Positions 2,907 to 22,595 of a stretch of DNA of 23,009 nucleotides are shown here, piece after piece (position 1 is the stretch's first letter; every line of letters begins with the position of its first letter). The translations under genes and the position numbers were made by a program. The notes below the pieces were generated by a model. That model worked only from the letters and a program-made list of their open reading frames with translations. It was not told the DNA's origin and ran no database searches. Origin of the DNA: a virus. The DNA lies in the IMG/VR virus record IMGVR_UViG_3300041402_001054, positions 1 to 23,009 of that record. The stretch is one strand, 5' to 3'.

Positions 2907-5900
2907 TGTTCCTTTTTCCATTTATTCGTCAATATTCTTAATCTTCTTATAAATCTATCCGACCATACTCCGGGAATCTTTCTCGCTAAGCGCTCTAGCC
3001 CCTTCCTTTCATCCTTTCCTGTCTCTAAATATTTTGTCCAGAATACGGTAGCCCTTGCTTCCGGGGAGAGTTCAGCCATGTTCAACCACCATGTCCTATC
3101 CGGAATGTCATAAATAACCCCATATCTCTTGAACCAACTAACGAGCCTTTTTCTATCTTCAGCCGGTTGCTTTCTTATGAAAGCTTTGATCTTGCTAAGA
3201 ACATCTCTATCTTTTATTTTTTCATCTTTGAGTTTCCTATAATATGTGTTAGCCATTTCGCTGAGTTCTCTTTTTTGCTTATGTTTCCTTGTTGAGTCCT
3301 CCATGGCGACCTTTTCCACTTTCTTTATTTCTTCAACTGAATACGGCGGAGTAACGCCAAACACTCTTCTTACGAGAGGAAGCCTTGACACAATTTCGGT
3401 CGTTGTTTTTCTTTTGTCTTTTTCAGGCAAATCTTTCATGGCAAGAGTAAGGCCACCATTGACAAGGCTTGTGTAGACATTCCCCCTGGTAAAAACCTGG
3501 CTCAAGAAATATTCAAGCCTCTCTGGAGACCAGCCTGTTGCTGCCCCTATTTTTACCAATGCTGGATGCGTGTATATCGTGTATTCCTCCCTTGGCGTAA
3601 TTTTGCCTCCTCTCCATATATCTTTCCTTGTCCAAAAATCTTTGTTGGCCACATATCCCATCAGGCCATCTATCGAAGGTGGCAGAAGTTGATCCGGTAC
3701 TATAGGAATAAAATCTTGGACAGATTGGACAATTTGATCTGCATTAACCTCCTTGCCCAAAGCTTTCCTCATCAGGTTCTCAACAATAGTGCAGGCAATT
3801 CTTTGTCCTTGATCTTTCGCTATCTTAAAGTATAGATACCGTCTATTCCCATTTTTATCCGTAAATCTAAATGGTGTGCTGAGGATCCAGTTATTAACCT
3901 TTTCTCTATCGGTGACGTGATCCATACATTCTTCGTTGACGAGATTATTTGCTAAATATAAGCCACTTGCTAACACCGCTAACTGAGCAAATTTCCATAA
4001 TGTATCAACTGGCCTGTCTGCCAGGGCCCTAAAGATTCCTCTTGTCCCCTGCACTCCTGCATTGAGATAAGGGATCCCTGCATCCAGAGCTTTCGTAACA
4101 TTACCACCCTGACTAAAATCAATATAATTCCTTGCTGTCCAGGTGGCTTCATGTGGAGATCTTCCTTGCCTTAGAGCTCTCTCCCTGAGTGCTATTCTTG
4201 TCCAGATCTCCGATGTTTCACCAAGGTAGCCTAACGTTTGTTGCAAGGCCTTGAGCTTTCTATTGGCTGTCTTAAATGGTCTTCCCTGGTGAGTCAAGAA
4301 CGTCATTCCCCCACCTTCATCTAGGTAGTCAATCCATCTTCCCTTCCTCGAGAAAGCATCTTTCGCTGTTACCATAAAATCTCTTGCGATCTGAAAGGTA
4401 AACTTAGGAACAAAGCTTGAATATTCAGATGTTGTAATCCAGACATGGGCAATATCTCTTGGGAAGTTAGTCAATGCAAAGCCAGGGTTTAATCCTGTGG
4501 CCATCGGTTTCAAAAACCTACTTCCTGAGAGCCATCCAATCCAGAGAGCAAGCTGTTGGTTTATCAGCGGGTCTCTAGTCAACCACTCTCTTGCATGTTC
4601 ATCACGCATTATAATTTCTTTTGGTTTTCCCTCAACCATAGCTTTTATTTTTGTATGCCCGGCTGGTGCTTCCTGATAGATAGGCTTCCCTTCTTTTGTT
4701 GTTTTATATACTTTAGCCAGCTTAAATATCCCATTATCAGGGACCTCCTTGGCTAGGCTAAGTGCTGTCTTATTAGCCCTGTTTCTAAATATCCTTGCTT
4801 GCGTCCTTGATACAACATTTTGAAGGAGTAGCCTTGAGTTATTTTCCATAACCTGATAACTTCCTTCATCAAGGGCCTTTATTCCGCTATCAGGGACCGT
4901 TATTATCCTTCCCATTGAATCATAACCTTTTGCTGGGGGATCAAGATACTGAATGAACATTCTTGGTGAATAATCGCCTTTGCTTTTTAAGTTTTCATGA
5001 GACTCGGCATCGATCAAGCCTTCAGATTTTAAATCATCTAAAACTTTTTCCATCTCATTGAAATAAAGGTCTGCCCTCTCCTGTATTTCTTTTGGAATCG
5101 TCTTCATGTATTCTGTGTGTTCTTTTTCGCTCAGACCATGAGGATGCCTTACTTCTGGCTTATACTTAGAGATAGCAATTGTCCTCCTTGATTGGATAGC
5201 CGCATTTAGTAACTCTTCATCTGCCTTAGAAAGTTTTGAGTATATCTTTTTAGAAGCTTCTTCAAATAATCTCTCTGCTTTTGCGTTGGCCCCGGCAATT
5301 AGATCGTGCTGAATTGCAGCCTCCTTGCCTAAAGGACCCAGGTCTTTAATTAATTCCTTCTTTACGTTTCCGCTCGTATCAACAAAAGCTCTTTTAGCAC
5401 CTTTAAATGCTTTTTTAAAGCTAGGTTTTTTTCTCTCTTTTAACTGTCTGCTTGTTTCCAGGTACATCCACTCGACCTTGCCTGTGTCAGTCTTTTGCAG
5501 CTCGCCTTTGAGCTCTTCCAGCTTCACTCTCTTTATTGTTTTAGCCCTTTCTCTAATCCTTGATATTGCCTCCTTGATTTCTTTCGTAAACGGATAGCCA
5601 GAGTAAAGCTCCCATTCTTCTTTGGGGACTTCCTTCACATCTCTTATGACTTCCTTCATGTATTTTTCTGTTTCTTGGGGACTCAAAGCCTGCCCCCATT
5701 TTCCTTGATAAGTTGCGCCAACCTTTAGTTTACCTTCTATCCCTACCTGTTTTGCATATTTCTTAACTTCAGCAATCCTATCAACTGGCAATTCACCAAG
5801 CTCCTCGACATCTCCCGCAGGAGTTTCTACTGATACTTTGACCAGGCTCATTCTTTCCGGGACTTTTTCTATCTCGGGCTCGGGCAAAGGCTTGGGTTCT

Positions 5901-8732: not shown

Positions 8733-8745
8733 TTTCTCCTCCTTC

Positions 8746-9650: not shown

Positions 9651-9662
9651 TTTAACCTCCTT

Positions 9663-10097
9663 TTAAAACGTATCTAATTCATCCTTTTTCTCTATATTGT
9701 AAACCTTATTGGTCCTGTGGCAGTAAAGCAAGAAAAGACCGTTGAACCCATAGTTCTTGAGCATATAATATTGTCTCCAATCTTCACGACCGAAGTTTTT
9801 CTTCATCCGATGGTTGTGGATTACAACCGCTATTTCCTTTATGCTGTAATTCTTGCCTTTAACTCTCCGAAGCTTTTCTTCCAATCTTCCCATGCTCATA
9901 TCAACCATTGCTTCATATCGGCTAGTATGCGGGAAAGTTGCGCCATCCTTCATAACCACATAGACCCTTTCAAGGTGATCGGGAAAGAGCTCTTGCCAAG
10001 AGTTAATTCGCTTCTCAGATGCAGAGAAAATAGAAGCCAACATCAGCAAACTGAAGATTTGAATTAAATTGCTTGTTATTACTTTCGTACTTCGCAT
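9663..10097 (-). CDS. JAMM/JAB-like protein with N-terminal signal peptide
   Basis: A 144-residue protein. The N-terminus has basic residues and a hydrophobic run ending FSA (about residues 10-26), consistent with a Sec signal peptide. The rest resembles the JAB/MPN (RadC-like) metalloprotease fold: AVVIHNH at 90-96 then GRED at 103-106, compare the RadC HNHPxG...SRED pattern. H94, H96 and D106 could bind zinc, but the spacing from the second His to Asp is one residue shorter than the canonical JAMM motif and the conserved Ser is Gly. It may therefore be a divergent or inactive member. YGFNGLFLLY follows as a core strand. No Shine-Dalgarno is visible before the ATG, unlike almost all neighbours. 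The gene follows the spike gene and precedes the ejection genes. Confidence 0.5.
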   Translation of the reverse strand: MRSTKVITSNLIQIFSLLMLASIFSASEKRINSWQELFPDHLERVYVVMKDGATFPHTSRYEAMVDMSMGRLEEKLRRVKGKNYSIKEIAVVIHNHRMKKNFGREDWRQYYMLKNYGFNGLFLLYCHRTNKVYNIEKKDELDTF

Positions 10098-10107
10098 TTA
10101 TTTTTAA

Positions 10108-11703
10108 TTATTGATCTACCACGGCTATTTCATGCTCTACTCCTGCACCATCTTGAAAGTAGAGCTTATTGTCATTTTTAGTATATATTTTTCCATAGTC
10201 CGCATCTGCTGTGGGTGTTGTTGTTTCCTTCATGCATAACTTCCCGTTTTCTAAAGTAATCTCAGCATAGGTAGATGGGTTTAGTGTGCCGAAACCAAAA
10301 CCGTAATTTTGGTTCATATAACCACATTTCCCTGCTGATAAAACAAACATTCTAGGGGCTGCTACGCCATCATTAAAAACTATATTTTTACCCGCAGTAA
10401 AAGTTCCAAAACTAGGATAACTGACAAATAAACGAAGATTTGTTCCCGTGTTGTGTATAAAATATCCTAAACCCGCCCCCATGCCACTCTTATTAGAATA
10501 TTGTCCTCCAATTACATTGACTCCCAATACATACTCCCCAATATAAATGTTATTTAATCCACCACTTGCATAATTTTGGATATTTTCTAATGTTATTGAC
10601 TTGGCATGTCCTTCAATCACTATCATGGCATCGTGAGGAGATACTGTTGCAACAGAAGTTTGCATCATGATACTACTCAAATGAACTCCATAAGCATTTT
10701 TTATATAAATTAGAGGCTTTGTAGCATAACCAAAAATCTCAATATTAAATTTTGTGATAGAAATATGATTCCCTACCCCCTCGGAAGGAGAATCAAGAGC
10801 AACGGCACCTGCACATTCTCCTTGACAATAACCACCATCAATAACTACATCAGGAGGAGGAACTCCCCCAATGGTGCTATTTGAAAGCATAACAGCATAG
10901 TCGTTAGGACAATTTCCGTAAGCATTTCTACGCAACTCGACAATCCCTGTTCCACCTTGAATCAAAACATCGTGTTTTCCCCAATTTCTAATAAAGCATT
11001 CCTCCATAACGAAATTCGAGACCTTTCCTTCGGGTACAACTACGCCACTATGGTTGGCGTTAACACCTGTAGAACCTCGTATCTCAATATTTTTTAATAT
11101 TGCTCTTCTGAGCCCCGCACCAGTTGTGAAATTAATTACAATTCCAGGTATAGAATCATCAGAAAAATAAATCCCTGAATTAGGAGCGGTAGCAGCATTT
11201 GAGCCAAATCTTGCACTACCAATATAGGTTGCCTGCCATTGAACATTGTCAAAGGTAATGGTTGACCTGCTTTCGTAAAGAGCCGAGAAAATAACTGGTA
11301 ATCCGGTATCTGTCGCAGCCTGTAAAGCAGCAGCACAATCAATGGGAGTTCCTGCATCATAAGGAACCGCTCCCCACCACTCTGGATAAACCATTGATAC
11401 CGAACCAAGACCAAAATCTACCTTGCCCGTTCCTGCCCATTCAAATATCTCGTATAAGCCTGCCTCTACACGACCATCAATTGTTAGCGTTTTTGTGGTA
11501 GAAATAAGAACTGAACCACCCCGTAAGAATTTCAGCGTGATATTATCTGGAATAGTCAAATCATCAGTGACGGCATACTGCTTGAAAATAGTCAGGGTAC
11601 TCTCCCTAGCACCCAGAGCATTTATAACCACAGCGAGATTTTGCGTAAACCCAAAAACACTAAGAAGTAAAACCAGGGTTAATACTGTTAATGCTTTTTT
11701 CAT
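10108..11703 (-). CDS. Beta-helix tail spike-like protein with signal peptide
   Basis: A 531-residue protein starting MKKALTVLTLVLLLSVFGF, a typical Sec signal peptide. Residues about 25-115 form a beta-rich cap (NITLKFLRGGSV, TIDGRVEAGLYEIF, VYPEWWGAV) also found in the truncated upstream gene. Then PIDCAAALQAA and a long repetitive beta region (about 120-470) with many Asn/Gly turns look like a pectate-lyase-type right-handed beta-helix. The C-terminus carries a tag seen in phage fibres (ADADYGKIYTKNDNKLYFQD, then GAGVEHEIA). Such proteins usually bind or cut surface polysaccharides. No catalytic residues can be assigned by eye. A strong AGGAGG precedes the ATG. The export signal is odd for a virion protein. 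Confidence 0.75.
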   Translation of the reverse strand: MKKALTVLTLVLLLSVFGFTQNLAVVINALGARESTLTIFKQYAVTDDLTIPDNITLKFLRGGSVLISTTKTLTIDGRVEAGLYEIFEWAGTGKVDFGLGSVSMVYPEWWGAVPYDAGTPIDCAAALQAATDTGLPVIFSALYESRSTITFDNVQWQATYIGSARFGSNAATAPNSGIYFSDDSIPGIVINFTTGAGLRRAILKNIEIRGSTGVNANHSGVVVPEGKVSNFVMEECFIRNWGKHDVLIQGGTGIVELRRNAYGNCPNDYAVMLSNSTIGGVPPPDVVIDGGYCQGECAGAVALDSPSEGVGNHISITKFNIEIFGYATKPLIYIKNAYGVHLSSIMMQTSVATVSPHDAMIVIEGHAKSITLENIQNYASGGLNNIYIGEYVLGVNVIGGQYSNKSGMGAGLGYFIHNTGTNLRLFVSYPSFGTFTAGKNIVFNDGVAAPRMFVLSAGKCGYMNQNYGFGFGTLNPSTYAEITLENGKLCMKETTTPTADADYGKIYTKNDNKLYFQDGAGVEHEIAVVDQ

Positions 11704-11723
11704 TTAAGCCTCCTATTTATATA

Positions 11724-12212
11724 TTAACCAGAGTACCATTCGGGAAACATCGCTGCTGCTGCAAGTGGACCGAGAACAACAGAACCCTCACCCTCGAATA
11801 TTAGATATGCCCCAGCCTCAACCCAACCATTGATAGTTACGGTTATGCCCAAACTTACATTAAGTGAACCGCCTTGTAAAAATTTCAGCGAAATATTTGA
11901 AGGAACTGTTTTACTTTCACTTACAGTTAATTTAGTTGATATTAGAAGAGTTTTCTTAGAGGAACCAATATCGCTTATCGCAGCAGAAAAAGAGTTATAT
12001 TTTTTTGCATCAATCCAGGAGCTAGTTAGGCTATTATAAATAATTCTTTCAATCACTTTTTCTGGAACTGATAAATTTTCAGACAATGCTAATTTATCGT
12101 GAGATCCCCTGAATAAATTATGCTCTTTTTCAAATATCTTAACAAAACCAAGAAGATGCTCTTCATCTAAAACTTTCCTGACAATAGCCCTTACTTCTTC
12201 TTCATTTTTCAT
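11724..12212 (-). CDS. Truncated spike paralogue: helical N-terminus plus cap module only
   Basis: A 162-residue protein with no signal peptide. Residues 1-70 are helical and charged (MKNEEEVRAIVRKVLDEEH, then a Lys/Glu-rich stretch). Residues about 72-162 match the cap module of the neighbouring 531-residue spike: NISLKFLQGGSLNVS, TINGWVEAGAYLIFEG and a final FPEWYSG, aligned to NITLKFLRGGSV, TIDGRVEAGLYEIFEW and YPEWWGA. The protein stops exactly where the paralogue goes on into its beta-helix. It could be a degraded spike, or an adaptor whose cap trimerises with or templates the full-length spike. Its ATG is one base after the nozzle stop, so it is translationally coupled to a core tail gene. 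Confidence 0.65.
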   Translation of the reverse strand: MKNEEEVRAIVRKVLDEEHLLGFVKIFEKEHNLFRGSHDKLALSENLSVPEKVIERIIYNSLTSSWIDAKKYNSFSAAISDIGSSKKTLLISTKLTVSESKTVPSNISLKFLQGGSLNVSLGITVTINGWVEAGAYLIFEGEGSVVLGPLAAAAMFPEWYSG

Positions 12213-12213
12213 T

Positions 12214-15200
12214 TTATTCAGCGCTTATAGTCCTTTTCCCTCTCTTTGTCTTAATGTAGAGCCAAAACTTAATTACCTGCAGTAGATCTCCAACGTCCTC
12301 CGTGTTAATAAATTCAAGAGAATAGAACTGGCCCTTGATAGACATATCTATCCTTTTATGAATGACGTTTCTCAATTCAGGATCAGCGCCGGTTGGCGTG
12401 GATCCAGCAAGGCTTACATTCAAATCAGCGGTATCCCTAAAATTTGAATAGACCTTAAAAATAAGTATCTTATCTGCCGGCAGGATGAAATCAATCCAAA
12501 TTTTCCTCAGGCGCATCCATTTTTCGCTACCTATCCATCCTGTCTTCCATCTCATATTTATAAGTTGGCCATCATCAGTAGTCGCATCGACGTCCACCTT
12601 GTAGAGCTCTCCTTGATCCGTACCATAAAGCATGGCCCTTTCTCCCTTCTCTATTGCCAGGACGCTTATAGAACAAATATTTTGATGGTATGTATCGACA
12701 AAGAAATTTTTGTCTTTGTAGTTATAAACAATTGTTTTGTTAGGGACCATGCTCGAGCCGGTAGGAATGGACAGTCTAAATTCATTTTCTTCTTCATGGT
12801 TTCTTGCTAAGGATCTGTGAGCATACGTTTTATTTATTGTTTTAAGGATTTTTTTAACTTTATTAGGTAATTCCATTGTCGTCAATTTCCAGCCATCAAA
12901 CTCTTCTATTTCATAGTAATTAGACAGGAACCTTAATTTCCTGTCTCCACATTCTGCTACACTCGCACCAGCACAAGTCCCTTTGCCATAAATCATTTTA
13001 TCAATAACAAGTTCTGTCCCACTCCTTGACATTACCCAGATTGAATTTTTCTTAAATGGATAGAGATAATTATTGAATTCTTTTACCCTCAGGACCGGGC
13101 TGGCCTCATCTTCCCTTAAAGGAAAAATGCTATTTGCTATTGATTTAAACTGTTCTAGGTAGCCTCGCCTAGATCTAAAAAGGCTTTCCGGATAACCCTC
13201 AACACCACAAACCCACAAGCAATCATCCCAGATCTCAATCGAATCGCCAAGTGGAGGGGGGTAGCTTTCATAGCTTACCTCATCTCCCAGGGCCGAGTCT
13301 GGGAAGCTATCTTTATACGTAGTAACGCTGTTCAAGATTGTCTCGACCCAGTAACGCTCTTCTTCCCCTTCTTTGTTTCTCCATATACTCTTGTGAGTTA
13401 CCTCCGCTTCCGGTGAGACAGGGATATTTGTCAAATTGGCTACATTGCCGGAAGTCAATTCTACTCCTTCAGAAGGTGGCGATGGATTGCTCTCGCAGGG
13501 ATAATTCCCCCCTCTTATATAAGTAACAACATAAGAATAGGTTCCAAGAACATCGGAGATTGAAGTCCAGAGTTCAAAGAGGATATCAACATCTTCTCTT
13601 ACGGTCCAATCTAGTTGATCATCAATGTCCCATCTTTTACCGACCGTATATGTTGGATCTATTTTATCCATGCCAACTCTAACATAGTTAGTCGAGTTGA
13701 TAGCGGAGTCCCCATAAATGACAAGCCAGTATTCTGTATTGGCTTTAATGTCAGGTAGCACTCCATTGAATGTAAACGTTACCCATCCATAAGTAGGGAA
13801 GGCTGATAGAGCATCAGCATCTTCCTTGTCAGATCCTTCCCCTACAATTTCGTCTGAAAGGTTTATGGTCTCAGACATTCCTCCGTGGCCAGAATGAATT
13901 TCAGCCCACACTTTTTTGCCAGTCAGGGATCCTACCTTCGCCAAATAAAGCTTGACCTTTGTTACATTATTATCTTCATAGACCAAGAATTCCTGGGCCA
14001 TAAGGGTAGTAGCATTTGTTTCCCTTAGCTCTTTTATGTCATCAATGTTTGATAGTGCGTATTCAACGAATTTCTGTTCCTCTGTTACCAGCCCATAAAT
14101 TTTAAATGAGTAATCTTCATCTCCATTAATCCATGTCGTATCATACTTGATGGTATGTTGTTGTCCATCACCATATGTTCCCCCTCCCTGTGTTCTTGTC
14201 CACTTAATATGCTTACCTTCAACAGGAGGATCCCAGCTTGCATATAATATAAGATAATAAGTTGTATCTGCACTTAAAGATGGCTTTGTTCCCGAGAAAG
14301 GAAAGGTTATCCAATTAAACTCAATTAAATCAATATCATCTTTATCTTTAGTATCGCTATCACCCCCAACTTGTGTTCCAACTTTATCGCTATGAATTTC
14401 TACCCATACCGTTGCCCCTGGTGGGAAAAGAGTTCTTCTTAACGGCAATTTAACGCTGGTTAATTCAGATGCTTTATCAACCTTGAAGCTTTGAGCACTA
14501 TACCAAAAGGTCAGATCAGCATGAACCGTATCAGAATAACCTGTTTCCTTAGCTCCGTAGGCTTCTATCTCCTCTTCCTCTATGGTCTGTCCACAAATCT
14601 CAAAAACTAAATCAACGGTACTGTATCCTCCCCAATCAAGCGATCCGTCTATCTCCCAATATTTACCATCCTCATATTCAGGGCTACTATTATCGAAGCC
14701 TATCACTATAAAATTAGTAGAGCTTATTGAAAAAGTGACATCTCTGTAGATGACGAAATAATAAGTTTTATCCGCTTCAAGATCTGGAGCTGTTCCGGAA
14801 AACGTCAATTGATAAACAGTCTCTATTTTGATCGAATCTCCAGCGCTCTCGTCTACTAGGTCTTCAGTAACAACGATCTCAGCTGCGACTCCTCCAGTAG
14901 CAACGGTATAAAATCCATCATTGTGGGCCGTACCTGACACTTTGATCGTATCGCCGGTTATGAATCCCGCTAACCCGGTACCTGAATCTGTAATTTTCTT
15001 CGTAGCGGAAACAAAGGCAATTGTTGTCTCTTCAACCTCGGCGAAGGAGCCTCTTATATTGCTGATGTCGAGATTATCTGTCGCCTGGCCATTTATAGCT
15101 GGCGAAGCGTTTTTTGTTACTGAAGTATTTGATTTAGATTCGTGGATCTCAGCCCAAATATTACCGGTCGGGCTGCCGACTTTCCTTAGCTTCAGCGTTA

Positions 15201-15804
15201 TCTTCGACAGCTCGCAATCTACGGACACCTTGAATGACTGAGCTAAAAGTGTTTGCCCTGCAGCTTGCCCCAACTCACCACAATGGTCCTGATTTGAATC
15301 TGGGTATTCAGCAAGTTTTTTCTCGCCGGCGGCCGCTTCTGATTCAACGGTAGGCGGAGAGAGGGGAGCTTCTACGCCAGAATAATTTGCTTGTCCATCT
15401 TTTATTGTGATCAGCTTTTCATAGCCGGCCACTAGAACCAATCCTTTATCCTGGACTACCGAGACAGGCTTATCAATTATCTTAGTAGGCGAAAAGATCG
15501 ATCCCCATTCGTTGCCTGATTTAAGTTGAATATCATCTTCCAGGAAGGCGGCAACTTTAACCTCGTCAGACTCCTCTATGCCAAAAGCGCCAAAGACCTT
15601 CTTTGAGGCAAAGTCATATATGGAATCTAGCTTTGTTAGCCCGGGTCTTTTCTGTTTTCTCTTGCCATCCTCTGATCCTCTTGTGTTTTCACAAATAAGA
15701 CACTCTCTAATTGGGATCTCGCTTGGAGGGCTGGCTTCATTTAGACCTCCACCTAGATCCTCTACGGGTACTTTTTTGAGCGGCTTTTTTGTGTAGCTTG
15801 CCAT
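12214..15804 (-). CDS. Propeller-type tail nozzle/stabilisation protein with inserted beta modules (1196 aa)
   Basis: The N-terminus (VEDLGGGLNEASPPSEIP ... RKQKRPGLTKLD) and the C-terminal half (about 750-1196) read like short-tail nozzle/stabilisation propellers. The C-terminal signs are TYSYVVTYIRGGNYPCESNPSP, IEIWDDCLWVCGV, YEIEEFDGWKL, NKTIVYNYKDKNFFVDTY, YGTDQGELYKVD and MRWKTGWIG. Between them lie three related beta-sandwich modules, at about 161-401, 418-571 and 580-746. Each has an AQ(S/E)F strand, a VGSxTG or equivalent turn, (W/V)xEIHS and ADxTYYxVIY. Module one has a further small beta domain nested at about 254-325 (TKKITDSGTG, GDTIKVSG). The modules may bind glycans. It follows the adaptor gene directly (TAA-ATG) and would form the distal tail tip. 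Confidence 0.72.
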   Translation of the reverse strand: MASYTKKPLKKVPVEDLGGGLNEASPPSEIPIRECLICENTRGSEDGKRKQKRPGLTKLDSIYDFASKKVFGAFGIEESDEVKVAAFLEDDIQLKSGNEWGSIFSPTKIIDKPVSVVQDKGLVLVAGYEKLITIKDGQANYSGVEAPLSPPTVESEAAAGEKKLAEYPDSNQDHCGELGQAAGQTLLAQSFKVSVDCELSKITLKLRKVGSPTGNIWAEIHESKSNTSVTKNASPAINGQATDNLDISNIRGSFAEVEETTIAFVSATKKITDSGTGLAGFITGDTIKVSGTAHNDGFYTVATGGVAAEIVVTEDLVDESAGDSIKIETVYQLTFSGTAPDLEADKTYYFVIYRDVTFSISSTNFIVIGFDNSSPEYEDGKYWEIDGSLDWGGYSTVDLVFEICGQTIEEEEIEAYGAKETGYSDTVHADLTFWYSAQSFKVDKASELTSVKLPLRRTLFPPGATVWVEIHSDKVGTQVGGDSDTKDKDDIDLIEFNWITFPFSGTKPSLSADTTYYLILYASWDPPVEGKHIKWTRTQGGGTYGDGQQHTIKYDTTWINGDEDYSFKIYGLVTEEQKFVEYALSNIDDIKELRETNATTLMAQEFLVYEDNNVTKVKLYLAKVGSLTGKKVWAEIHSGHGGMSETINLSDEIVGEGSDKEDADALSAFPTYGWVTFTFNGVLPDIKANTEYWLVIYGDSAINSTNYVRVGMDKIDPTYTVGKRWDIDDQLDWTVREDVDILFELWTSISDVLGTYSYVVTYIRGGNYPCESNPSPPSEGVELTSGNVANLTNIPVSPEAEVTHKSIWRNKEGEEERYWVETILNSVTTYKDSFPDSALGDEVSYESYPPPLGDSIEIWDDCLWVCGVEGYPESLFRSRRGYLEQFKSIANSIFPLREDEASPVLRVKEFNNYLYPFKKNSIWVMSRSGTELVIDKMIYGKGTCAGASVAECGDRKLRFLSNYYEIEEFDGWKLTTMELPNKVKKILKTINKTYAHRSLARNHEEENEFRLSIPTGSSMVPNKTIVYNYKDKNFFVDTYHQNICSISVLAIEKGERAMLYGTDQGELYKVDVDATTDDGQLINMRWKTGWIGSEKWMRLRKIWIDFILPADKILIFKVYSNFRDTADLNVSLAGSTPTGADPELRNVIHKRIDMSIKGQFYSLEFINTEDVGDLLQVIKFWLYIKTKRGKRTISAE

Positions 15805-16518
15805 TTATCTCACGGCTTCACTTAATCTTCCTCTCCTGTTATATTTAAGCGAAGGTTTTATTTTCAAGAGCTTATCCCTAACCCTAGAAAGTTCTCTGTC
15901 GTAGATTTTCCCGACCTCTATGGCTCCAGATTCATCTGCAATCTGACATTGAAAGACTGCATCTATGGATATTAATTTATGTGCTGGTGCCGGAAAAGGA
16001 GGCGTTGCTATGTTAGGAGAGGTGTCTGAAGTATCATGATTAAGATCTGGAACCTTATAAAAATAATAAGCTTTATATCTATCCGCTAGCGTTGATGGCG
16101 GGATGGGCCTTAATCCAATGACTCCTTCTTCTTCCCAGAACCAAACTTTAGGCTCTGCCACTTCATTGATGCTGCCCACGAATTCATAAAGTTGATCAAG
16201 CTCTATATAAGTCAATCCATGTGGCTTCTTAGCTCCTAAATTATGAAAAATATCTTCCATCATAAGAAAATCGGTTACAGATAAATCATCTTCAATATCG
16301 TATTCCCATTTATTTATTTCCCTTGAGATCAAGAATTTCTTTCTAAAATATTGCGGTATAATGGGGATTAGATCTAATTGAACATTCTGCTGAGAAATAT
16401 TTATAACCTCGTTAAGGTCAAATATATCATCATCCTCATCTTTGACCTGTCCTTCCGGGAGTTCCGATAATTCGTCAAGTAAAAAGCGGGCGTAATTTCT
16501 GATTGCTAGCCTATTCAT
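15805..16518 (-). CDS. Head-tail adaptor-like protein (T7 gp11 / P22 gp4 position)
   Basis: A 237-residue soluble protein. The N-terminal helices (MNRLAIRNYARFLLDELSEL) contain the FDLNEVINISQQNVQLDLI stretch typical of adaptor proteins, which usually carry a WxDxEIxxxINxAxxxL pattern. A beta-containing middle (YIELDQLYEFVGSINEV, then VWFWEEEGVIGLRPIPPS) and a late helical region (EVGKIYDRELSRVRDKLL) match the usual adaptor order. Adaptors form the dodecameric ring under the portal that receives the nozzle. The direct junction to the nozzle gene supports this. GGAGG precedes the ATG. The call relies on pattern and synteny; sequence similarity to T7 gp11 itself is not obvious. Confidence 0.6.
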   Translation of the reverse strand: MNRLAIRNYARFLLDELSELPEGQVKDEDDDIFDLNEVINISQQNVQLDLIPIIPQYFRKKFLISREINKWEYDIEDDLSVTDFLMMEDIFHNLGAKKPHGLTYIELDQLYEFVGSINEVAEPKVWFWEEEGVIGLRPIPPSTLADRYKAYYFYKVPDLNHDTSDTSPNIATPPFPAPAHKLISIDAVFQCQIADESGAIEVGKIYDRELSRVRDKLLKIKPSLKYNRRGRLSEAVR

Positions 16519-16529
16519 TCTTCCTCCGT

Positions 16530-16760
16530 TTATTTTTTCACAAAGGGAATGATACCCTTAACATCTGTCCAGGTGATCATCCCGTCAACAAATAAGGTTC
16601 CGATAGAAAGCAACCCTGCGTATAAAATCCACATATCTTTTCCTGCGGTGATATTTCCTCCGAATAGAACTGCATAAAACGCTGCAGTAATTAGCCCTAC
16701 GTTTATCAACCACATCACCTTTCTGCCAAAGTTTCGACCTTTCTTTTCATTATTTTCCAT
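16530..16760 (-). CDS. Small two-TM membrane protein, holin candidate
   Basis: A 76-residue protein with a basic, polar N-terminus (MENNEKKGRNFGRK) and two transmembrane helices (about 16-34 MWLINVGLITAAFYAVLFG and 43-61 MWILYAGLLSIGTLFVDG) joined by a short polar turn. The C-terminus is short and ends in VKK. This is the shape of class II holins, with both ends inside. AGGAGG lies seven bases before the ATG. Its place between a beta-helix gene and the head-tail adaptor, far from the endolysin, is unusual for a holin. It might instead be an unrelated membrane protein working with the exported proteins encoded just upstream. Confidence 0.55.
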   Translation of the reverse strand: MENNEKKGRNFGRKVMWLINVGLITAAFYAVLFGGNITAGKDMWILYAGLLSIGTLFVDGMITWTDVKGIIPFVKK

Positions 16761-16770
16761 CTTTTTCCTC

Positions 16771-18378
16771 CTATCTTATTACAAACACATCTCTTATTAG
16801 CAGGATGTCTCTAATCAGAGCTGTAGGAATGTCGCCCTGCTGCTTCTCATGCACCCCTACGTCTGGAGCCGTCCCCGACCAAACCATATTACCGAAATAA
16901 TCAAGTGATAACCCGACATCGACTCCTGCATCCTTACATGGTGAGCCACCCTGAATGCGGAAATCATTACCTGCCTTATTTACAAACTGTGCATCTTCCC
17001 ATAATCCGTTTGTATCCCAGCCTGTATCAGTTTTATAATCCGCAAAATCACCAGCGAAAAAATCATCAGGGGACAGGTTAGCTACGGTTACATATACGGC
17101 TCCCACAGAGTTGTACCATAAGTTATAATCACAAGCTGTTATCATGCTAGAATTTTGCACAATAAGACATCTTCCATTAACATCAATCCCTATGTTGTTT
17201 TTTAATGTAACTCCACTAATCCCCGGACCCCAGATAAAAAAGGCATTAGTAGTATATATAGACCCACTACGATGCCTGCATACCATATTGTTATAGATGC
17301 TAACTGTCGTGGTGTATTGACCTATTTGTACGCCATTCTGGTCACAATTATAGAGAAGATTGAAAGAAATCTCCATATTCGTGACTTTATTACTACTAGA
17401 AGACCCCTGTGAATATATCCCATTGCCAGCATAGCCAGCACCGTAATCAGAGGTAAAATAAAGCAGGTTACGCCTAATAATCGGGCCTGAATGAGTGCCA
17501 TTCGGACATTGAACATCAATGAGAGTATGGTAACAATCCCATATTTCATTATCCTCTATGATGTTGCCGATACTCGATCCTCCATTACCAGTAAAATTAA
17601 ATACTCCATGATTCCCGCAGTTGTTGATTGTGTTGTTTTTTGCTGTACAATAATCTGCCCGTTCAAACATAACGCCATCACATTGACCACCATTCTTGGG
17701 AGCAAAATGATGTATAAGACATCCATCAACTATGATATGGGCAGCATCATAAGTTCGTACACCATATTTATCGGCATAGGCTAATTCAAGATTTTCAACA
17801 GTGATATAACTTTTTTCTTGTATCCAAAAACAATCCTCTCTTTGTGTCGCCTCTACAGAATTATATCTTGTATCGGGGTCAGTGATAGCATAACAGTATA
17901 AGTATGGTGAGGACCAATACCAATCATACTCTGACTCGGGACTACCATCTTCTGTTCCCCATGTTACACTGTCGTCTGTTTCAACGAAAAACACTCCAAC
18001 AGGGTCAGAACCACAAGTTGCTCTCCAGACATTTGAGCCTTGGTCAGCCCAAGAAGTAGGAGCAGCTGAACCGAAAATCTGAGGTAAATCTCCACTTCCG
18101 TAAGCACCGAACGTAATTTGGCCACCAGAATCACCAGAAAAAAGAACAGTCGCTTGCTCTCGCCAAGTATCACCCCTATTAAAGTAAATATTATCACCAG
18201 GGGAAAAACCCGGACTTGAACCATAACTCATAACTTTGGCTATGGTTTCCCAAGGGAAGCCGACTAAACCACTATTGCTGTCGCTTCCCGTAGGGGCATT
18301 GGCCACATAATACTCTGTTGCCATTAAAGGAGACAGCAAGAGAACTAGAAAGGTTAGACAGGCTAACAATCTTTTCAT
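16771..18378 (-). CDS. Right-handed beta-helix protein with signal peptide
   Basis: Start chosen at 18378: AAAAGGAGG (18394-18386) sits seven bases upstream, inside the end of the previous gene; the frame from 18399 begins before that site. The 535-residue product starts MKRLLACLTFLVLLLSPLMA, a clean Sec signal with an LMA cleavage site, and the mature part begins TEYYVANAPTGSDSNSG. The PWETIAKV and PGDNIYFNRGDTWRE motifs mark secreted or phage beta-helix proteins. Repeated beta rungs with Asn ladders follow (ITVENLELAY, HIIVDGCLIHH, NIIEDNEIWDC, NMEISFNLLYNC, GVTLKNNIGIDV). After DVGVHE the C-terminus ends in a hydrophobic period-7 tail (IRDILLIRDVFVIR). A carbohydrate-related role is likely for the fold; no catalytic triad is assignable. 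Confidence 0.75.
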   Translation of the reverse strand: MKRLLACLTFLVLLLSPLMATEYYVANAPTGSDSNSGLVGFPWETIAKVMSYGSSPGFSPGDNIYFNRGDTWREQATVLFSGDSGGQITFGAYGSGDLPQIFGSAAPTSWADQGSNVWRATCGSDPVGVFFVETDDSVTWGTEDGSPESEYDWYWSSPYLYCYAITDPDTRYNSVEATQREDCFWIQEKSYITVENLELAYADKYGVRTYDAAHIIVDGCLIHHFAPKNGGQCDGVMFERADYCTAKNNTINNCGNHGVFNFTGNGGSSIGNIIEDNEIWDCYHTLIDVQCPNGTHSGPIIRRNLLYFTSDYGAGYAGNGIYSQGSSSSNKVTNMEISFNLLYNCDQNGVQIGQYTTTVSIYNNMVCRHRSGSIYTTNAFFIWGPGISGVTLKNNIGIDVNGRCLIVQNSSMITACDYNLWYNSVGAVYVTVANLSPDDFFAGDFADYKTDTGWDTNGLWEDAQFVNKAGNDFRIQGGSPCKDAGVDVGLSLDYFGNMVWSGTAPDVGVHEKQQGDIPTALIRDILLIRDVFVIR

Positions 18379-18379
18379 T

Positions 18380-19048
18380 TCAAGGCCTCCTTTTAGCAAT
18401 AAGCAATAGAGACGCTAAGAGAAAGTTTATCCCAAAGAAGATAGCATTTTCTTCTCCATTCCCATTCTCATCCACATAAACCTCAATCTTCGTAATAATA
18501 GCAGTCATGTTTGCTAAAGGAGTATAACCAACCGTTTGAGTTAAAGTATCATCAGCCCCAGGTGTATTGTGATACATCCCATCGCTAACTGACTCATCGT
18601 ATGACCAATTCTCTCTATCAACCATATAAATATGAAAGCCATATCTTTCTGTCTTATCAAAAGCGAAGGTAATCTCATCGCTAACTTTCTCTTGATCCGC
18701 ATTACAGCTAACACCATCATTATCCCCTTCCCATGTAATTCTTTGAAAGGTTCCTTCATCTTCATCACCAATCGCATCGTCCATGTCATCAGCGGTTGTC
18801 ATTAGACCAACAGAGGTCCCATCTAAAGTTGCTGCACCCCAACTCCAAGCGGTAACTGTTATTCTGATTTTAGAACCACTGAAAGCCGAAGTACCCGCAG
18901 GTAATATGTTCCTATAATTTCTTCCTGCACTCCCTAAACCAAGGTCAGGTGTTGATTGCCAAGCTATTTCCCAACCTGGACTGCCCGTTCCTGTAGTAAA
19001 TAATAAAAGCGTGAGGCATATTACAACTAAAGCAATTCTCTTCAACAT
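18380..19048 (-). CDS. Signal-peptide protein with phage decoration/fibre-like domain and C-terminal TM
   Basis: A 222-residue protein. The N-terminus MLKRIALVVICLTLLLFTT is a Sec signal. The acidic beta-rich middle (about 27-195) has the pattern of a domain seen in phage fibre and decoration proteins: GRNYRNILPAG, SKIRITVTAWSWG, TSVGLMTTADD, FQRITWEGDNDGV, KVSDEITFAFD, TAIITKIEVYVDE. The C-terminus has a hydrophobic segment (202-218, FFGINFLLASLLLIA) ending in KRRP, which looks like a membrane anchor or surface-sorting tail. The KRR codons are AAA-AGG-AGG, which is also the Shine-Dalgarno of the next gene, so the basic end may partly be a by-product. AAGGAGG precedes the ATG. Confidence 0.65.
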   Translation of the reverse strand: MLKRIALVVICLTLLLFTTGTGSPGWEIAWQSTPDLGLGSAGRNYRNILPAGTSAFSGSKIRITVTAWSWGAATLDGTSVGLMTTADDMDDAIGDEDEGTFQRITWEGDNDGVSCNADQEKVSDEITFAFDKTERYGFHIYMVDRENWSYDESVSDGMYHNTPGADDTLTQTVGYTPLANMTAIITKIEVYVDENGNGEENAIFFGINFLLASLLLIAKRRP

Positions 19049-19058
19049 CTATACCTCC

Positions 19059-21104
19059 TTATGTGATAAGGTCTACGTCCGACATAATTGATAGCCAATA
19101 ATCAGTTCCATCAAAATAGAAGGCAACTATGTCCACGTCTGCATTTCCTGTTGAGAGTGTAGGTGCTGTTCCGCCTGCTGCTCCTATATGAGTATCATGC
19201 GTCCAGTCAATCGTATCATCTCCATCTCCCTGAACAATTACTAGAATCAAATTACAAGCTCCAGGTGGATCGGTAAAAGACATATCTAGATTCACGCCTG
19301 TAATTGTGACCTTTTGCTTCTGTCCGTTAGTCCAATCTATTGTAAAAGCTCCACCTTCCGCACCCTCATCATACTCAGCATCGAAGGTGATTATCTCGTT
19401 CACAACGAGGGTGTCTAGTATCAAGTCTTTAGACCACGACTTTATCCCTCCCGTAGTGCAAACAAGAATACTCCCATTAGCACCAGGAAAGGCCGTAGGG
19501 ACTGTATAAATTGTGTCCCCAGACTGAACTCCTACTTGATCCCCGTAAACGTCTCCATCCGCATCCTGAAGTTTCATCACTCCTGCGTTACCGGCAGCTC
19601 CAATAGCGACACCTCCTGGAATCGGTACTATAGCAGTACTCCATTCAATGTCTTCCGTAGTATCATTGTAGAACGGAAACTTATCTGCATTAGGGTCGGT
19701 CAGGTTTGTGAGTTCTGTCAAGACGGCATTCTGAGCCTGAACATCTGCGCCTATTTCCACTCCCAAAGCGGCCCTTGCTGTAGCATGATCCGCAAGGCTC
19801 AATGTGACAAAATTGCCTCCGTCAGCCATTGTGAAATGATTCGCAGTGAACCGGAATAATCCATCACCACCTGCGACTCCGAAATAATCTTCAGTCGCAC
19901 CAGCGTCTACTTTTAATTTGAATGTAGCAGCCGCCCCCAGTTGAGTATCCGTACCATCCTCATCAGTGAACCACAGTGTATTAGGAGCGCCAGCATCTAC
20001 CCATATTTGACCAGATCCCCCTATATCTGCATCTGCTTCTGCCTGTTCGATTAGATAAAAACTATTAAGTCCCGTAAGGTTCTGACCATTCCAGGCAAAT
20101 CCAGCTCCAGCTGTATTGCTCAAGTCAGCCATAAATGCGGCGAACGATACGTTTGCAAGCAATGTCTGTACGTTTGCCGAGGGAGCTATTCCAGCGTACG
20201 TGTCAAGAGCAGCACCCCAAGCTTGAACATCATTCCCTATCTGTAAACCTAAAGCAATTCTGGCTGTGGCGTGATCAGCAAGACTAAAGGTAACGAAATC
20301 GCCACCATCTGCCATCGTAAAATGGTTTGCGGTGAATCGAAATAATCCGTCGCCTCCAGTAACCCCAAAATAATCAGCAGTCGCACCAGCATCAACTTTC
20401 AATGTGAAAGCATCTACGGCTCCAGCTACCCAGGTTGGAGCAGCGGCAGCTCCATTTGACTTTAAAAATTCCCCATTCGCACCCAAAGCTAATTCTATAA
20501 TTGTATTAGCGCCATTGGAATGAAATAGCCTCCAATTTGTTGGGGTGGCGAGGGTATCCAGGTCTGCATCAGAAGCCTGGGCACTAATGTCTGCTAACAC
20601 ATTTGCAACTGTTCTTTCCTCAAATCCATCAACACCATCAACTCTAATATATCTACCAGCAGTTGTAGCTACTGCGGATAAGTCAGTCAAGGCAGCATCG
20701 TAAGCGTTGAAATCAGTCCCTACTTCTAAATCTAAGTCAGTCCTAGTTTCTGCATAGCTTCTGCCTTCAATAGTGTCAGCGTCGGTGAACTTAGCAAAGT
20801 CGTTGTCTACTGGAACCCCACTCGTATCTACGCCTCCGCCTCCTCCAGCAGTCAAATCTGTTGCGTTTCCAGCGTCGTCCTTGTAGTAAAGCTTACCAGT
20901 GTCCCCCAACACGTACAACATCCCGTAACCCACTTTGTGAGTCGGTGCTGCCGAAAGTTCCTTGAGCTCTAGCCACTTTTCAAAAACTGCCTTGTCAATA
21001 AATGGGGGTATAGGATAAATCAGTGGTATTTGACCTACGGCAAGATTAGCAGAGCTAAAAAAAAGAACGCTACATAATGTTAAAACCAATAATATCTTTT
21101 TCAT
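19059..21104 (-). CDS. Tail fibre-like protein with signal peptide and internal repeats (681 aa)
   Basis: Start set at 21104, where the ATG overlaps the upstream stop as ATGA behind CAGGAG; the frame from 21149 adds 15 residues without support. The product opens MKKILLVLTLCSVLFFSSAN, a Sec signal. Next come a tag motif (GDTGKLYYKDDAGNATDL), a Gly5 linker and fibre repeats. Three copies of an AR(T/A)xLGxEIGxDVQA-type motif lie near 117, 276 and 438. A larger ~61-residue unit with DYFGV(T/A)GGDGLFRFT occurs twice, near 233-293 and 395-455. A second tag (IWVDAGAPNTLWFTDEDG) lies between them. The C-terminal ~120 residues (GGAFTIDWTNGQKQKVTITG, AFYFDGTDYWLSI) look like the beta knob common at phage fibre ends. 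Likely role: host-surface binding; the export signal is unexpected. Confidence 0.75.
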   Translation of the reverse strand: MKKILLVLTLCSVLFFSSANLAVGQIPLIYPIPPFIDKAVFEKWLELKELSAAPTHKVGYGMLYVLGDTGKLYYKDDAGNATDLTAGGGGGVDTSGVPVDNDFAKFTDADTIEGRSYAETRTDLDLEVGTDFNAYDAALTDLSAVATTAGRYIRVDGVDGFEERTVANVLADISAQASDADLDTLATPTNWRLFHSNGANTIIELALGANGEFLKSNGAAAAPTWVAGAVDAFTLKVDAGATADYFGVTGGDGLFRFTANHFTMADGGDFVTFSLADHATARIALGLQIGNDVQAWGAALDTYAGIAPSANVQTLLANVSFAAFMADLSNTAGAGFAWNGQNLTGLNSFYLIEQAEADADIGGSGQIWVDAGAPNTLWFTDEDGTDTQLGAAATFKLKVDAGATEDYFGVAGGDGLFRFTANHFTMADGGNFVTLSLADHATARAALGVEIGADVQAQNAVLTELTNLTDPNADKFPFYNDTTEDIEWSTAIVPIPGGVAIGAAGNAGVMKLQDADGDVYGDQVGVQSGDTIYTVPTAFPGANGSILVCTTGGIKSWSKDLILDTLVVNEIITFDAEYDEGAEGGAFTIDWTNGQKQKVTITGVNLDMSFTDPPGACNLILVIVQGDGDDTIDWTHDTHIGAAGGTAPTLSTGNADVDIVAFYFDGTDYWLSIMSDVDLIT
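19740..19921 (-). repeat. Fibre repeat, copy 2 of 2
   Basis: Encodes about residues 395-455 of the fibre protein (LKVDAGATEDYFGVAGGDGL ... HATARAALGVEIGADVQA). It is matched by 20226-20408. Protein identity is high, but many third codon positions differ, so the duplication is old and kept under selection for the protein sequence. Confidence 0.8.
20226..20408 (-). repeat. Fibre repeat, copy 1 of 2
   Basis: Encodes about residues 233-293 of the fibre protein (LKVDAGATADYFGVTGGDGL ... HATARIALGLQIGNDVQA). It is the partner of the copy at 19740-19921, about 490 bases away, in the same orientation and reading frame. Confidence 0.8.
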
Positions 21105-21577
21105 CTTAATCTCCTGGCCATTGATAACCTTGCATTTATAGCCGTGCAATTCCCTGCTCCACTATTCACCTTGATCCGATAAAGCTTGACATGGGTTGCA
21201 CCATAGAATTGAACCTGAGTAGTTATTCTGACAACGCTTGAGATTGAATTTACGTCTGTATTGGCCTGGATCCTAAGGTAAGCATCAGCAGCTATTCCTG
21301 TTGACCACGTAGAACCTTGATCTGTTGATACGGCAAATTCAAAATCAACGCTAACGGTAGCAGCAGCGGCCGGCGTAAACCAGACTGTAATTGCTCCCCT
21401 GTCATTCTGGCCACCTATGGAGATCTTGCTAGACGTAATAGCTCCTCCATCAACGACGGTAATGTTGTCGTTTACATCTACTGCTGTAGCAAAGAAATTT
21501 CTTACATATCCCTGAGATCCCATCAATGGCAAAATAAACAGTAATAGAAAAATACTAAGTATGATTTTTTTCATCAT
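21101..21577 (-). CDS. Small signal-peptide protein with beta-sandwich domain (158 aa)
   Basis: The product starts MMKKIILSIFLLLFILPLMG, a strong Sec-type signal peptide; either of two adjacent ATGs behind AAGGAG could serve. The mature part (about 24-158) is beta-rich: SSKISIGGQNDRGAITVWF, VDFEFAVSTDQGSTWSTG, SSVVRITTQVQFYGATHVKL, CTAINARLSMARRLR. The FAVSTDQGSTW pattern and alternating strands suggest a jelly-roll or Ig-like fold, like small phage decoration proteins. The family is not recognised. It is the first gene after the terminator at 21597-21623, and its stop overlaps the ATG of the fibre gene, so the two are translationally coupled and may work together as base and fibre. Confidence 0.6.
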   Translation of the reverse strand: MMKKIILSIFLLLFILPLMGSQGYVRNFFATAVDVNDNITVVDGGAITSSKISIGGQNDRGAITVWFTPAAAATVSVDFEFAVSTDQGSTWSTGIAADAYLRIQANTDVNSISSVVRITTQVQFYGATHVKLYRIKVNSGAGNCTAINARLSMARRLR

Positions 21578-21659: not shown

Positions 21660-22595
21660 TTAGGATTGTGTCAGCAATGTGCCATTCAGATAGCAGTTGT
21701 TGTACTTGGCATCGGCAGCGTTGTGTGCAGGATCCATGGCTTCCGCTTGGAAGTTGGTATTCGCTACCTGAACAAGGCTAGAATCATCATCGAGTCCGAG
21801 TGCTAGGGCAATTGATCCATCTCCTATTTCGCTGTTCTTGAGAATCGTCATAGAGGGTACGGAGTTTCTATGGAAGAAGATCCCCTTTTGATCAGCACCA
21901 CGAACAATAATCTCTTCAAGGATATTTCCGCTTGCCTGTTTCTGGGCGGCATTATCAGTAACAACATAGATCCCATTTCTCGCCATCTGGATGACAACAT
22001 TGGAAAGTCTGTTTCCGGTCATGTCCTTTACGATCTCTAGTCCCCTGGTTGTCGTTGGGCTTCCTCCTGGCAATCCGCAAAGCAGAATATCTACCAGCAC
22101 ATTTCTATTGAAGTTATCAACTTGGAATATAGGGTCTGTGTCGGGACACTCGAAACAAAGATTCTCGAGCCTGGAGTTGATTATGGACGTACAATCAACC
22201 GGGCTTCCGGCAACTGGCTTGATGGTTACGCCTCTTTCCCCGTTAAGGTCAAAAGCATCACCAAGGCCAATCATGCTACAACCATAAGGCATTGATTCAA
22301 GATTCTCTGCGTATTTCCCAGGTGCGATATAGCAAACATCGGCTCTAGCCCAAGGTGACTCTGCCCAATCAATCCGAGCGTTCATTGCAGTAATGGCTGC
22401 TTCGATTGTCGCAAATGCCCTATCAAACGATAGGCCATTATGCCTGTCACTTCCATCCTTGCCATCAACGTGGAATTGCACGGATCGTACAGGGGTTAGC
22501 CCTTGCCCTTGCATGAATTCAACCCGCCTGAGAAACCGGATCTTCCTTCCGATTTCGGCATAACCACGTCTTTGTCTTCTTACTCTTAAATACAT
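21660..22595 (-). CDS. Beta-helix virion protein without signal peptide (311 aa)
   Basis: The N-terminus is very basic (MYLRVRRQRRGYAEIGRKIR) and has no export signal, unlike the four genes that follow. From residue 40 the motif DGKDGSDRHNGLSFDRAFAT, then IEAAI, marks the start of a beta-helix of the type found in many environmental phage genomes. Later rungs (CSMIGLGDAF, RLENLCFECPDTD, GLEIVKDMTGNRLSNVVIQM, GNILEEIIVRG, PSMTILKNSEIG) continue the solenoid. Its place just before a terminator, near what would be the head-gene end of the operon, and its lack of a signal peptide suggest a true virion decoration or spike protein. AGGAGGT precedes the ATG. Confidence 0.7.
   Translation of the reverse strand: MYLRVRRQRRGYAEIGRKIRFLRRVEFMQGQGLTPVRSVQFHVDGKDGSDRHNGLSFDRAFATIEAAITAMNARIDWAESPWARADVCYIAPGKYAENLESMPYGCSMIGLGDAFDLNGERGVTIKPVAGSPVDCTSIINSRLENLCFECPDTDPIFQVDNFNRNVLVDILLCGLPGGSPTTTRGLEIVKDMTGNRLSNVVIQMARNGIYVVTDNAAQKQASGNILEEIIVRGADQKGIFFHRNSVPSMTILKNSEIGDGSIALALGLDDDSSLVQVANTNFQAEAMDPAHNAADAKYNNCYLNGTLLTQS

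Follow-up and report, generated by a model that had tools for sequence, protein, structure and literature searches.

The window, a 23,009-nucleotide stretch of a virus genome, encodes a set of minus-strand genes (S1 to S6) for which our preferred reading, held at about even confidence, is that S1 to S5, and probably S6, are receptor-binding spikes and their companions that would be exported by Sec and joined to the virions at lysis or later. The taught view is that tailed phages assemble entirely in the cytoplasm; our comparison of the window with cultured Cellulophaga phages suggests that some tailed phages may attach their outermost parts outside the cytoplasm. Under the preferred reading, S1 to S5 and probably S6 would be late phage proteins that are exported by the host Sec translocase, cut by signal peptidase I and folded in the periplasm or at the cell surface; S2, S4 and S5 would be of the receptor-binding fibre or spike type and S1 and S3 their likely companions. 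Virions would meet the exported proteins at or after lysis and have them mounted on the tail, while S3 may stay on the envelope through its C-terminal membrane anchor.

A broader proposition, to which we give somewhat less than even credence, is that tailed phages include a widespread class whose virions are made in two compartments: head and tail would be cytoplasmic and the receptor-binding spikes would pass through Sec and signal peptidase, snapping on by a conserved module at the mature N-terminus once the cell is open, with signal peptide and classical virion anchor interchangeable on the same spike domains. Lack of a signal peptide has served as support for a phage rather than a cell-surface origin of variable proteins (PMC6199706). 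If Sec-exported receptor-binding proteins do end on virions, that rule fails, virome fibre genes will have been missed or mistaken for bacterial ones, and an additional compartment has to enter models of infection timing.

Signal peptides in the window

The six genes are as follows.

S1, 21101..21577, minus strand: 158 aa, signal peptide and small beta-sandwich domain; signal-peptide score 13.5
S2, 19059..21104, minus strand: 681 aa, tail-fibre-like with signal peptide; score 13.4; PHROG tail fiber, E 4e-6
S3, 18380..19048, minus strand: 222 aa, signal peptide, C-terminal transmembrane segment and KRRP tail; score 12.7
S4, 16771..18378, minus strand: 535 aa, right-handed beta-helix with signal peptide; score 14.6; Pfam Beta_helix, E 1e-10
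S5, 10108..11703, minus strand: 531 aa, spike-like, signal peptide at the position of the anchor, then a cap domain; score 13.5
S6, 9663..10097, minus strand: 144 aa, JAMM-like with a weaker signal peptide; score 9.3

All six (21101, 19059, 18380, 16771, 10108 and 9663) were confirmed on the minus strand, with the N-termini MMKKIILSIFLLLFILPLMGSQ (S1), MKKILLVLTLCSVLFFSSANLAVGQ (S2), MLKRIALVVICLTLLLFTTGTGS (S3), MKRLLACLTFLVLLLSPLMA (S4), MKKALTVLTLVLLLSVFGFTQ (S5) and MRSTKVITSNLIQIFSLLMLASIFSAS (S6). Signal peptides were called with a custom scorer of n-, h- and c-regions at a threshold of 12, not with SignalP, and by this scorer the N-termini of S1 to S5 combine a basic n-region, a hydrophobic h-region and a small-residue c-region. 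Of shuffled N-termini 0.14% reach the threshold, as do 2 of 336 shadow open reading frames; among 44 E. coli K-12 coding sequences the hits were yaaX and yaaI (both true), three membrane proteins and carB, a single false positive. By this measure the signals of S1 to S5 lie far above chance. Their starts are well supported by GGAG- or AGGAGG-like ribosome sites upstream of each gene and by the start of S2 (ATG 21104), which overlaps the stop of S1 (21101) as ATGA; S4 (the 16771 gene) begins at ATG 18378. The original prediction of six Sec-type signal peptides thus stands for five of them, with values of 12.7–14.6 and well-placed starts, and is weaker for S6 (9663), which scores 9.3, below the threshold, and has no ribosome site visible at its start. 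S6 is the weakest case of the six, and its distant homologue also carries a signal peptide. The scorer gave nothing for the adaptor, nozzle, ejection proteins and 21660 beta-helix, as had been predicted. A spanin-like gene at 1627 of the window also scores, as a membrane anchor.

A canonical AxA site is absent from S1, S3, S5 and S6; a c-region xxA motif was found in 30 of 38 signal-peptide proteins in comparison to 44% of control segments. The +1 Gln of the Bacteroidetes rule is present in S1 and S5, possible in S2 as a G^Q further on, and lacking in S3, S4 and S6. Signal-peptide genes cluster, with 18 adjacent pairs where shuffling gave 6.5 on average and at most 14 in 2000 shuffles, and two to five signal-peptide genes in a row, of fibre or beta-helix type, are met with repeatedly in viromes.

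The original prediction had proposed looking at conservation of the signal in homologues, and S1 keeps its signal peptide at 31–49% identity in unrelated phages (L013, 46–49%; L015, 31%), as do most relatives of S2 (with a signal in L004, L005, L006, L009, L011, L012 and L027, without one in L010) and of S4 (with a signal in L005, L006, L015, L016, L019 and L025, without one in L014 and L021). Use of the signals across unrelated folds had been taken to indicate function, and since homologues keep them, function is likely. Fibre or spike domain homology was found for S2 (PHROG tail fiber), S4 (Beta_helix) and S5 (a spike of L038 behind Mtd_N); S1 and S3 are likely companions. The AF2 model of S1 (pLDDT 67) is a beta-sandwich for which phage tail proteins come out best in the PDB, at a weak Z of 8–9, within a weak and mixed set of phage tail proteins, carbohydrate-binding modules and viral jelly rolls. 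S4 matched choice-of-anchor Q weakly, at 16 bits, under the cut-off of 25, and a homologue search with S3 gave none. The C-terminus of S3 (AIFFGINFLLASLLLIAKRRP) holds a transmembrane segment and KRRP tail that the original prediction lacked. A C-terminal sorting anchor was rejected as a general feature, the filter having found it in only one of 42 signal-peptide genes, to which S3 was added by eye.

The S5 spike module and relatives of the virus

The remaining genes of interest are listed below.

Tail-fibre-like contrast case, 21660..22595, minus strand: no signal peptide; weak PHROG hydrolase and tail fibre matches
76 aa protein, 16530..16760, minus strand: two hydrophobic segments, in the gap between S4 and the adaptor
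Tail adaptor, 15805..16518, minus strand: no signal peptide; 54% identical to the L002 adaptor; named from the original prediction and gene order
Tail nozzle or stabilisation-like protein, 12214..15804, minus strand: no signal peptide; 65–80% identical to L002; PHROG internal virion protein, E 1e-10
Anchored tail-spike stub, 11724..12212, minus strand: N-terminal tail-attachment region and cap domain, then a stop; no signal peptide
Large ejection-type protein, 2903..7813, minus strand: places the virus among its relatives

To judge from sequence comparison, a signal peptide replaces the usual N-terminal virion-anchoring domain in the S5 spike module, and the two interchange. Over its residues 1–58 the 11724 stub matches the N-terminal end of the full-length L002 fibre at 60% identity, and its residues 74–160 are 42% identical to S5 residues 22–110. 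The cap domain of S5 follows a tail anchor in the stub and in L038 (Mtd_N, E 1.7e-11), and a signal peptide in S5 and L040. Whole-protein searches of viral contigs with S5 and S6 found nothing and neither had a PDB sequence match; the S5 structure model (pLDDT 47) was too poor for use. A homologue of S6 in L038 (6269-6694; 26–30%, E 9e-9) has a signal peptide and an HxH...SxxD motif (HSHQGSAYPSLPD) and adjoins an M15 peptidase gene. S6 itself retains HNH and a D of this JAMM motif without the Ser, and Pfam Toxin-JAB1 was matched, at 19.1 bits against a cut-off of 21, by the L038 homologue only and not by S6.

The 2903..7813 protein is 71–78% identical to that of L002, 38% to L027 over 838 aa, 27% to Desulfofustis phage OP947158 and 26% to Cellulophaga phage phi46:3. 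In the 23.8 kb examined, no signal-peptide gene was found in the close relative L002, which has a full-length anchored fibre, so the signal-peptide module is optional. Alignments of the nozzle and S2 in bacterial genomes gave no host and only two fibre matches, in L027 (a MAG labelled Euryarchaeota) and L026 (a Bacteroidetes MAG); the amidase and spanin-like protein encoded in the window argue for a diderm bacterium.

Cellulophaga phages and other known systems

The Cellulophaga phages phi19:1 and phi10:1 and their kin encode signal-bearing proteins of the pectate lyase (PHROG 11548), tail fiber protein (PHROG 16053) and virion structural protein (PHROG 22767) types, and like the window they carry late fibre or lyase genes in rows of two to three, each with a Sec signal, at the end of the tail operon concerned with receptor binding, in phi19:1 the three consecutive genes gp102, gp103 and gp104. 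They differ in that their hosts are cultured marine Bacteroidota and the proteins were detected in virions (MS/MS according to GenBank). The signal-bearing proteins gp102-104 of phi19:1 and gp093 and gp094 of phi10:1, which include fibre and pectate-lyase-like types, are annotated in GenBank as 'structural protein, experimental MS/MS'; their virion status is that annotation, and exported proteins could co-purify with particles. In phi19:1 the MS/MS note is also given to the capsid and tape measure and is absent from gp105-108 and the lysozyme. Taken at face value, these notes contradict, for cultured Cellulophaga phages, the original premise that exported spikes would not be built into virions.

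The C-terminal domain of gp103 also occurs in phi17:2 gp050 and phi4:1 gp049 (the latter with MS/MS), and the lyase domain of gp102 in phi14:2 gp097 (virion by MS/MS) and in phi4:1 and phi17:2. The N-termini of phi17:2 gp050 and phi14:2 gp097 are other than signal peptides, and no phi14:2 structural protein identified by MS/MS has one. By domain comparison, at least two of the three phi19:1 signal-peptide proteins have same-host podophage homologues, also recorded as structural, with a different N-terminus.

Most signal peptidase I substrates of Bacteroidetes have Gln at +1, the Q-rule (PMC5837995). A small residue followed by Q at the cleavage site was found in 12 of 13 Cellulophaga genes (about seven distinct N-termini) in comparison to 7.6% of control segments, and the sites predicted for phi19:1 and phi10:1 give predicted mature N-termini such as pyroGlu-TVEGTVGSDGSLIPY and pyroGlu-TVIK. 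Because their cleavage sites obey the Q-rule, these proteins appear to be genuine substrates of signal peptidase I. Among members of the gp103 family there is hardly any change across the signal peptide (93%) and the 29 residues that open the mature protein (82%), and the remainder is 21% identical, a pattern expected for an export-plus-docking module; the 58 synonymous and 32 non-synonymous pairwise changes in the family's signal-peptide codons indicate purifying selection. No sequence homology was detected between the Cellulophaga proteins and S1 to S6 or the environmental signal-peptide proteins, so the link to the window is one of architecture, and it is by analogy that we infer export, cleavage and docking and transfer the Cellulophaga case to the window.

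PblA and PblB of S. mitis SM1 and XepA of B. subtilis PBSX are likewise encoded by phages and act on the cell or outside it, and to our knowledge neither system has a Sec signal of the S1 to S6 kind; the structural likeness of S1 to XepA is weak (Z 7.8). Ordinary fibres and spikes (P22 gp9, T7 gp17 and those anchored by Mtd_N) share the fold type and probably the receptor-binding role but have no signal peptide, the T7 and P22 genes being negative with the custom scorer. Lambda Lom resembles the window's proteins as a signal-bearing protein encoded among tail genes and differs as an outer-membrane beta-barrel in the host membrane (PMC12309495), whereas S2, S4 and S5 resemble a fibre, a beta-helix and a spike protein. 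In the literature surveyed, which lay mostly outside the subscription journals and did not take in the Cellulophaga proteomics study, signal peptides on virion fibres were not found described.

Weighing of alternative explanations

The main rival is that the proteins are exported and never mounted, forming a surface coat or secreted set (for receptor masking, superinfection exclusion or digestion of host glycans to free progeny) whose presence in virion preparations is carry-over. We consider this rather unlikely. It would account for the signal peptide and C-terminal membrane anchor combined in S3 and also in L009 8276, for an L006 run that includes a lipobox-like protein and a signal-bearing SNase, for the varying position of the module (flanked either by the capsid and the connector genes or by the tape measure and the distal tail genes) and for the precedent of Lom, exported to the outer membrane from between tail genes (PMC12309495). 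However, the C-terminal anchor was filtered from only 1 of 42 signal-peptide proteins, L004 and L005 place their signal-bearing fibres among tail genes after the tape measure, and the phi19:1 MS/MS notes label the signal-peptide genes structural and leave the neighbouring non-structural genes unlabelled. Because of these Cellulophaga notes, mounting on virions is preferred over a pure surface coat, and among the readings first offered, assembly at the membrane or after lysis is the best supported, by the phi19:1 and phi10:1 annotation.

Another of those readings, uncleaved hydrophobic N-termini serving as anchors or docking peptides during cytoplasmic assembly, is improbable: the swap of anchor and signal peptide before the same cap domain and the lack of AxA sites in S1, S3, S5 and S6 would suit it, but the N-termini match Sec signals in charge and length, and cleavage-site features that docking would not need are conserved (xxA in 30 of 38; +1 Gln in Cellulophaga). 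Passenger bacterial genes for secreted surface proteins, with no phage-specific role, could explain why S4 is of a common secreted beta-helix type with its weak choice-of-anchor Q match and why the whole set is absent from L002. Such an origin seems quite improbable given the phage fibre and spike domains of S2 and S5, an S1 signal peptide kept at 31–49% identity across three unrelated phages and the purifying selection on gp103-family signal codons. Wrong starts or chance hydrophobic N-termini, an artefact to which the weak S6 score, its lack of a visible ribosome site and the custom origin of all scores might point, are disfavoured as extremely improbable by the ribosome sites, the ATGA overlap, conservation and the scorer controls.

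Signal peptides on a shared podovirus-like backbone

The record is a 23 kb fragment whose minus strand carries a late operon of podovirus-like type, and its backbone was recognised through a related contig, L002, with nozzle identity of up to 80% and ejection protein identity of 71–78%. L002 encodes capsid, adaptor, nozzle, a full anchored fibre of 767 aa and ejection proteins, and no signal-peptide genes were found in the 23.8 kb examined. As L002 shares the backbone and has no such genes in that stretch, the following are additions to the backbone:

S1, gene 21101, minus strand, signal-bearing
S2, gene 19059, minus strand, tail-fibre-like
S3, gene 18380, minus strand, signal-bearing
S4, gene 16771, minus strand, right-handed beta-helix
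S5, gene 10108, minus strand, spike-like
S6, 9663–10097, minus strand, JAMM-like, predicted exported

The nozzle (12214–15804) contains apparent repeated inserted domains, seen as several off-diagonal matches against L002. Between S4 and the adaptor lies an unannotated gene (16530–16760) whose 76 aa product has two hydrophobic segments.

Sec-type signals had been proposed for all six genes; five are textbook examples with good ribosome sites, while the sixth (9663) is weaker. Our in-house n/h/c-region scorer, which is not SignalP and treats signals and N-terminal anchors alike, gave one clear false positive in calibration on 44 E. coli genes, and passed 36 of 293 genes from 19 stretches in comparison to 2 of 336 shadow ORFs and 0.14% of shuffled N-termini. 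With the h-region placed by hydrophobicity alone, a cleavage-like xxA directly followed it in 30 of 38 proteins versus 44% of control segments; within the window this motif occurs only in S2 and S4, S1, S3, S5 and S6 having other small residues at the end. No fibre or MS/MS structural gene with a signal was found in T7, P22, Bacteroides phage B124-14 or the phi38:1 and phi14:2 stretches.

Residues 22–110 of S5 are 42% identical to residues 74–160 of the neighbouring gene 11724, and the homology begins where the S5 signal ends. Gene 11724 is an anchored tail-spike stub that matches the L002 fibre N-terminus over its own first 58 residues. The domain common to S5 and the stub follows the tail-anchoring Mtd_N in contig L038 and a signal peptide in contig L040. 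L038 also encodes a signal-bearing S6 homologue (6269–6694), likewise JAMM-like and predicted exported, that adjoins genes for an M15 peptidase and a small membrane protein and is therefore possibly a lysis cassette member.

Conservation and clustering in other phages

Whether homologues keep the signal, as asked in the original prediction, was answered affirmatively for S1 and for most S2 and S4 relatives, with exceptions. S1 homologues in contigs L013 (46–49% identity) and L015 (31%), phages without other relationship, are both signal-bearing and directly followed by another signal-bearing gene. Fibre relatives of S2 carry a signal in L004, L005, L006, L009, L011, L012 and L027 and lack it in L010; relatives of S4 carry one in L005, L006, L015, L016, L019 and L025 and lack it in L014 and L021. 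The related phages L006 and L021, whose capsids share 53% identity, differ in the genes 3' of the capsid gene, which bear signals in L006 and none in L021. Adjacent signal-bearing pairs numbered 18 against a shuffled mean of 6.5, in loci collected by homology to S1, S2 and S4, whose frequency therefore cannot stand for that among phages generally. BK063671, an annotated phage-collection record with an assigned methanogen host, has five signal-bearing genes in a row.

Two L006 genes of note lie in or beside its run of signal-bearing genes: one (15193–15660) for a signal-bearing staphylococcal-nuclease homologue (Pfam SNase, E 2e-18), the other (13749–14135) for a lipobox-like protein. L027 (JAKPCO010000019.1), from a MAG labelled Euryarchaeota, combines a 38%-identical relative of the window ejection protein with its signal-bearing fibre and is probably a stray phage contig.

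Signal-bearing proteins annotated as structural in Cellulophaga phages

The window ejection protein pointed to Cellulophaga phage phi46:3, whose signal-bearing structural protein in turn pointed to a set of Cellulophaga phages. In phi19:1, gp102, gp103 and gp104 are consecutive genes with signal-type N-termini, and their annotation calls all three structural on the basis of experimental MS/MS. Capsid, tape measure and other tail genes bear the same annotation; gp105–108 and the lysozyme have no such note. The gp104 N-terminus, MRNIVLILLFFNISFSFG, is clearly hydrophobic, yet fails the scorer's charge/cleavage rule. The same pattern occurs in phi10:1 (gp093 and gp094). The gp103 domain has a different N-terminus in same-host podophages (phi17:2 gp050; phi4:1 gp049, MS/MS). 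The same holds for the gp102 domain, found in phi4:1, phi17:2 and phi14:2, where its protein, gp097, is recorded in the virion by MS/MS. A match at profile level only, to PHROG 36353, suggests that gp104 may also have a homologue with a non-signal N-terminus.

Of 13 Cellulophaga genes, 12 have a small residue plus Gln after the h-region, versus 7.6% of control segments; the 13 amount to about seven distinct N-termini, and six of these have the Gln. Most signal peptidase I substrates of Bacteroidetes have Gln at the new N-terminus (PMC5837995), and the pattern fits this Q-rule, so that the signals look processed. The hydrophobic N-termini could alternatively be docking peptides, but these would have no need of Gln at a cleavage site. 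Members of the gp103 family differ little in the signal and the first 29 mature residues, and the remainder falls to 21% identity, which could also come from recombination at a shared N-terminal module; signal codons showed 58 synonymous versus 32 non-synonymous changes, summed over non-independent pairs.

Likely export and proposed virion mounting

S1–S5 are likely exported. We give even chances to their being subsequently mounted on virions, because joining is argued only from analogy and database MS/MS notes: the Cellulophaga proteins have the same architecture as S1–S5 but no detectable shared sequence. Export without mounting is the main alternative and appears less likely. Few precedents are known; lambda Lom is exported and its gene lies among tail genes (PMC12309495), and phage variable proteins have been described without signals, which was taken as support for phage origin (PMC6199706).

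The L016 phage gene at 353–811 has a type IV prepilin-like N-terminus (MKTIGFTLIELLLVVVI), and gp002 of the crAss-like phage phi14:2 (L032, 283–1278) is an OmpA-domain protein with a signal-type N-terminus. The L009 protein at 8276–11194 combines a signal peptide, a beta-helix and a C-terminal membrane anchor with a basic tail, a type I membrane topology.
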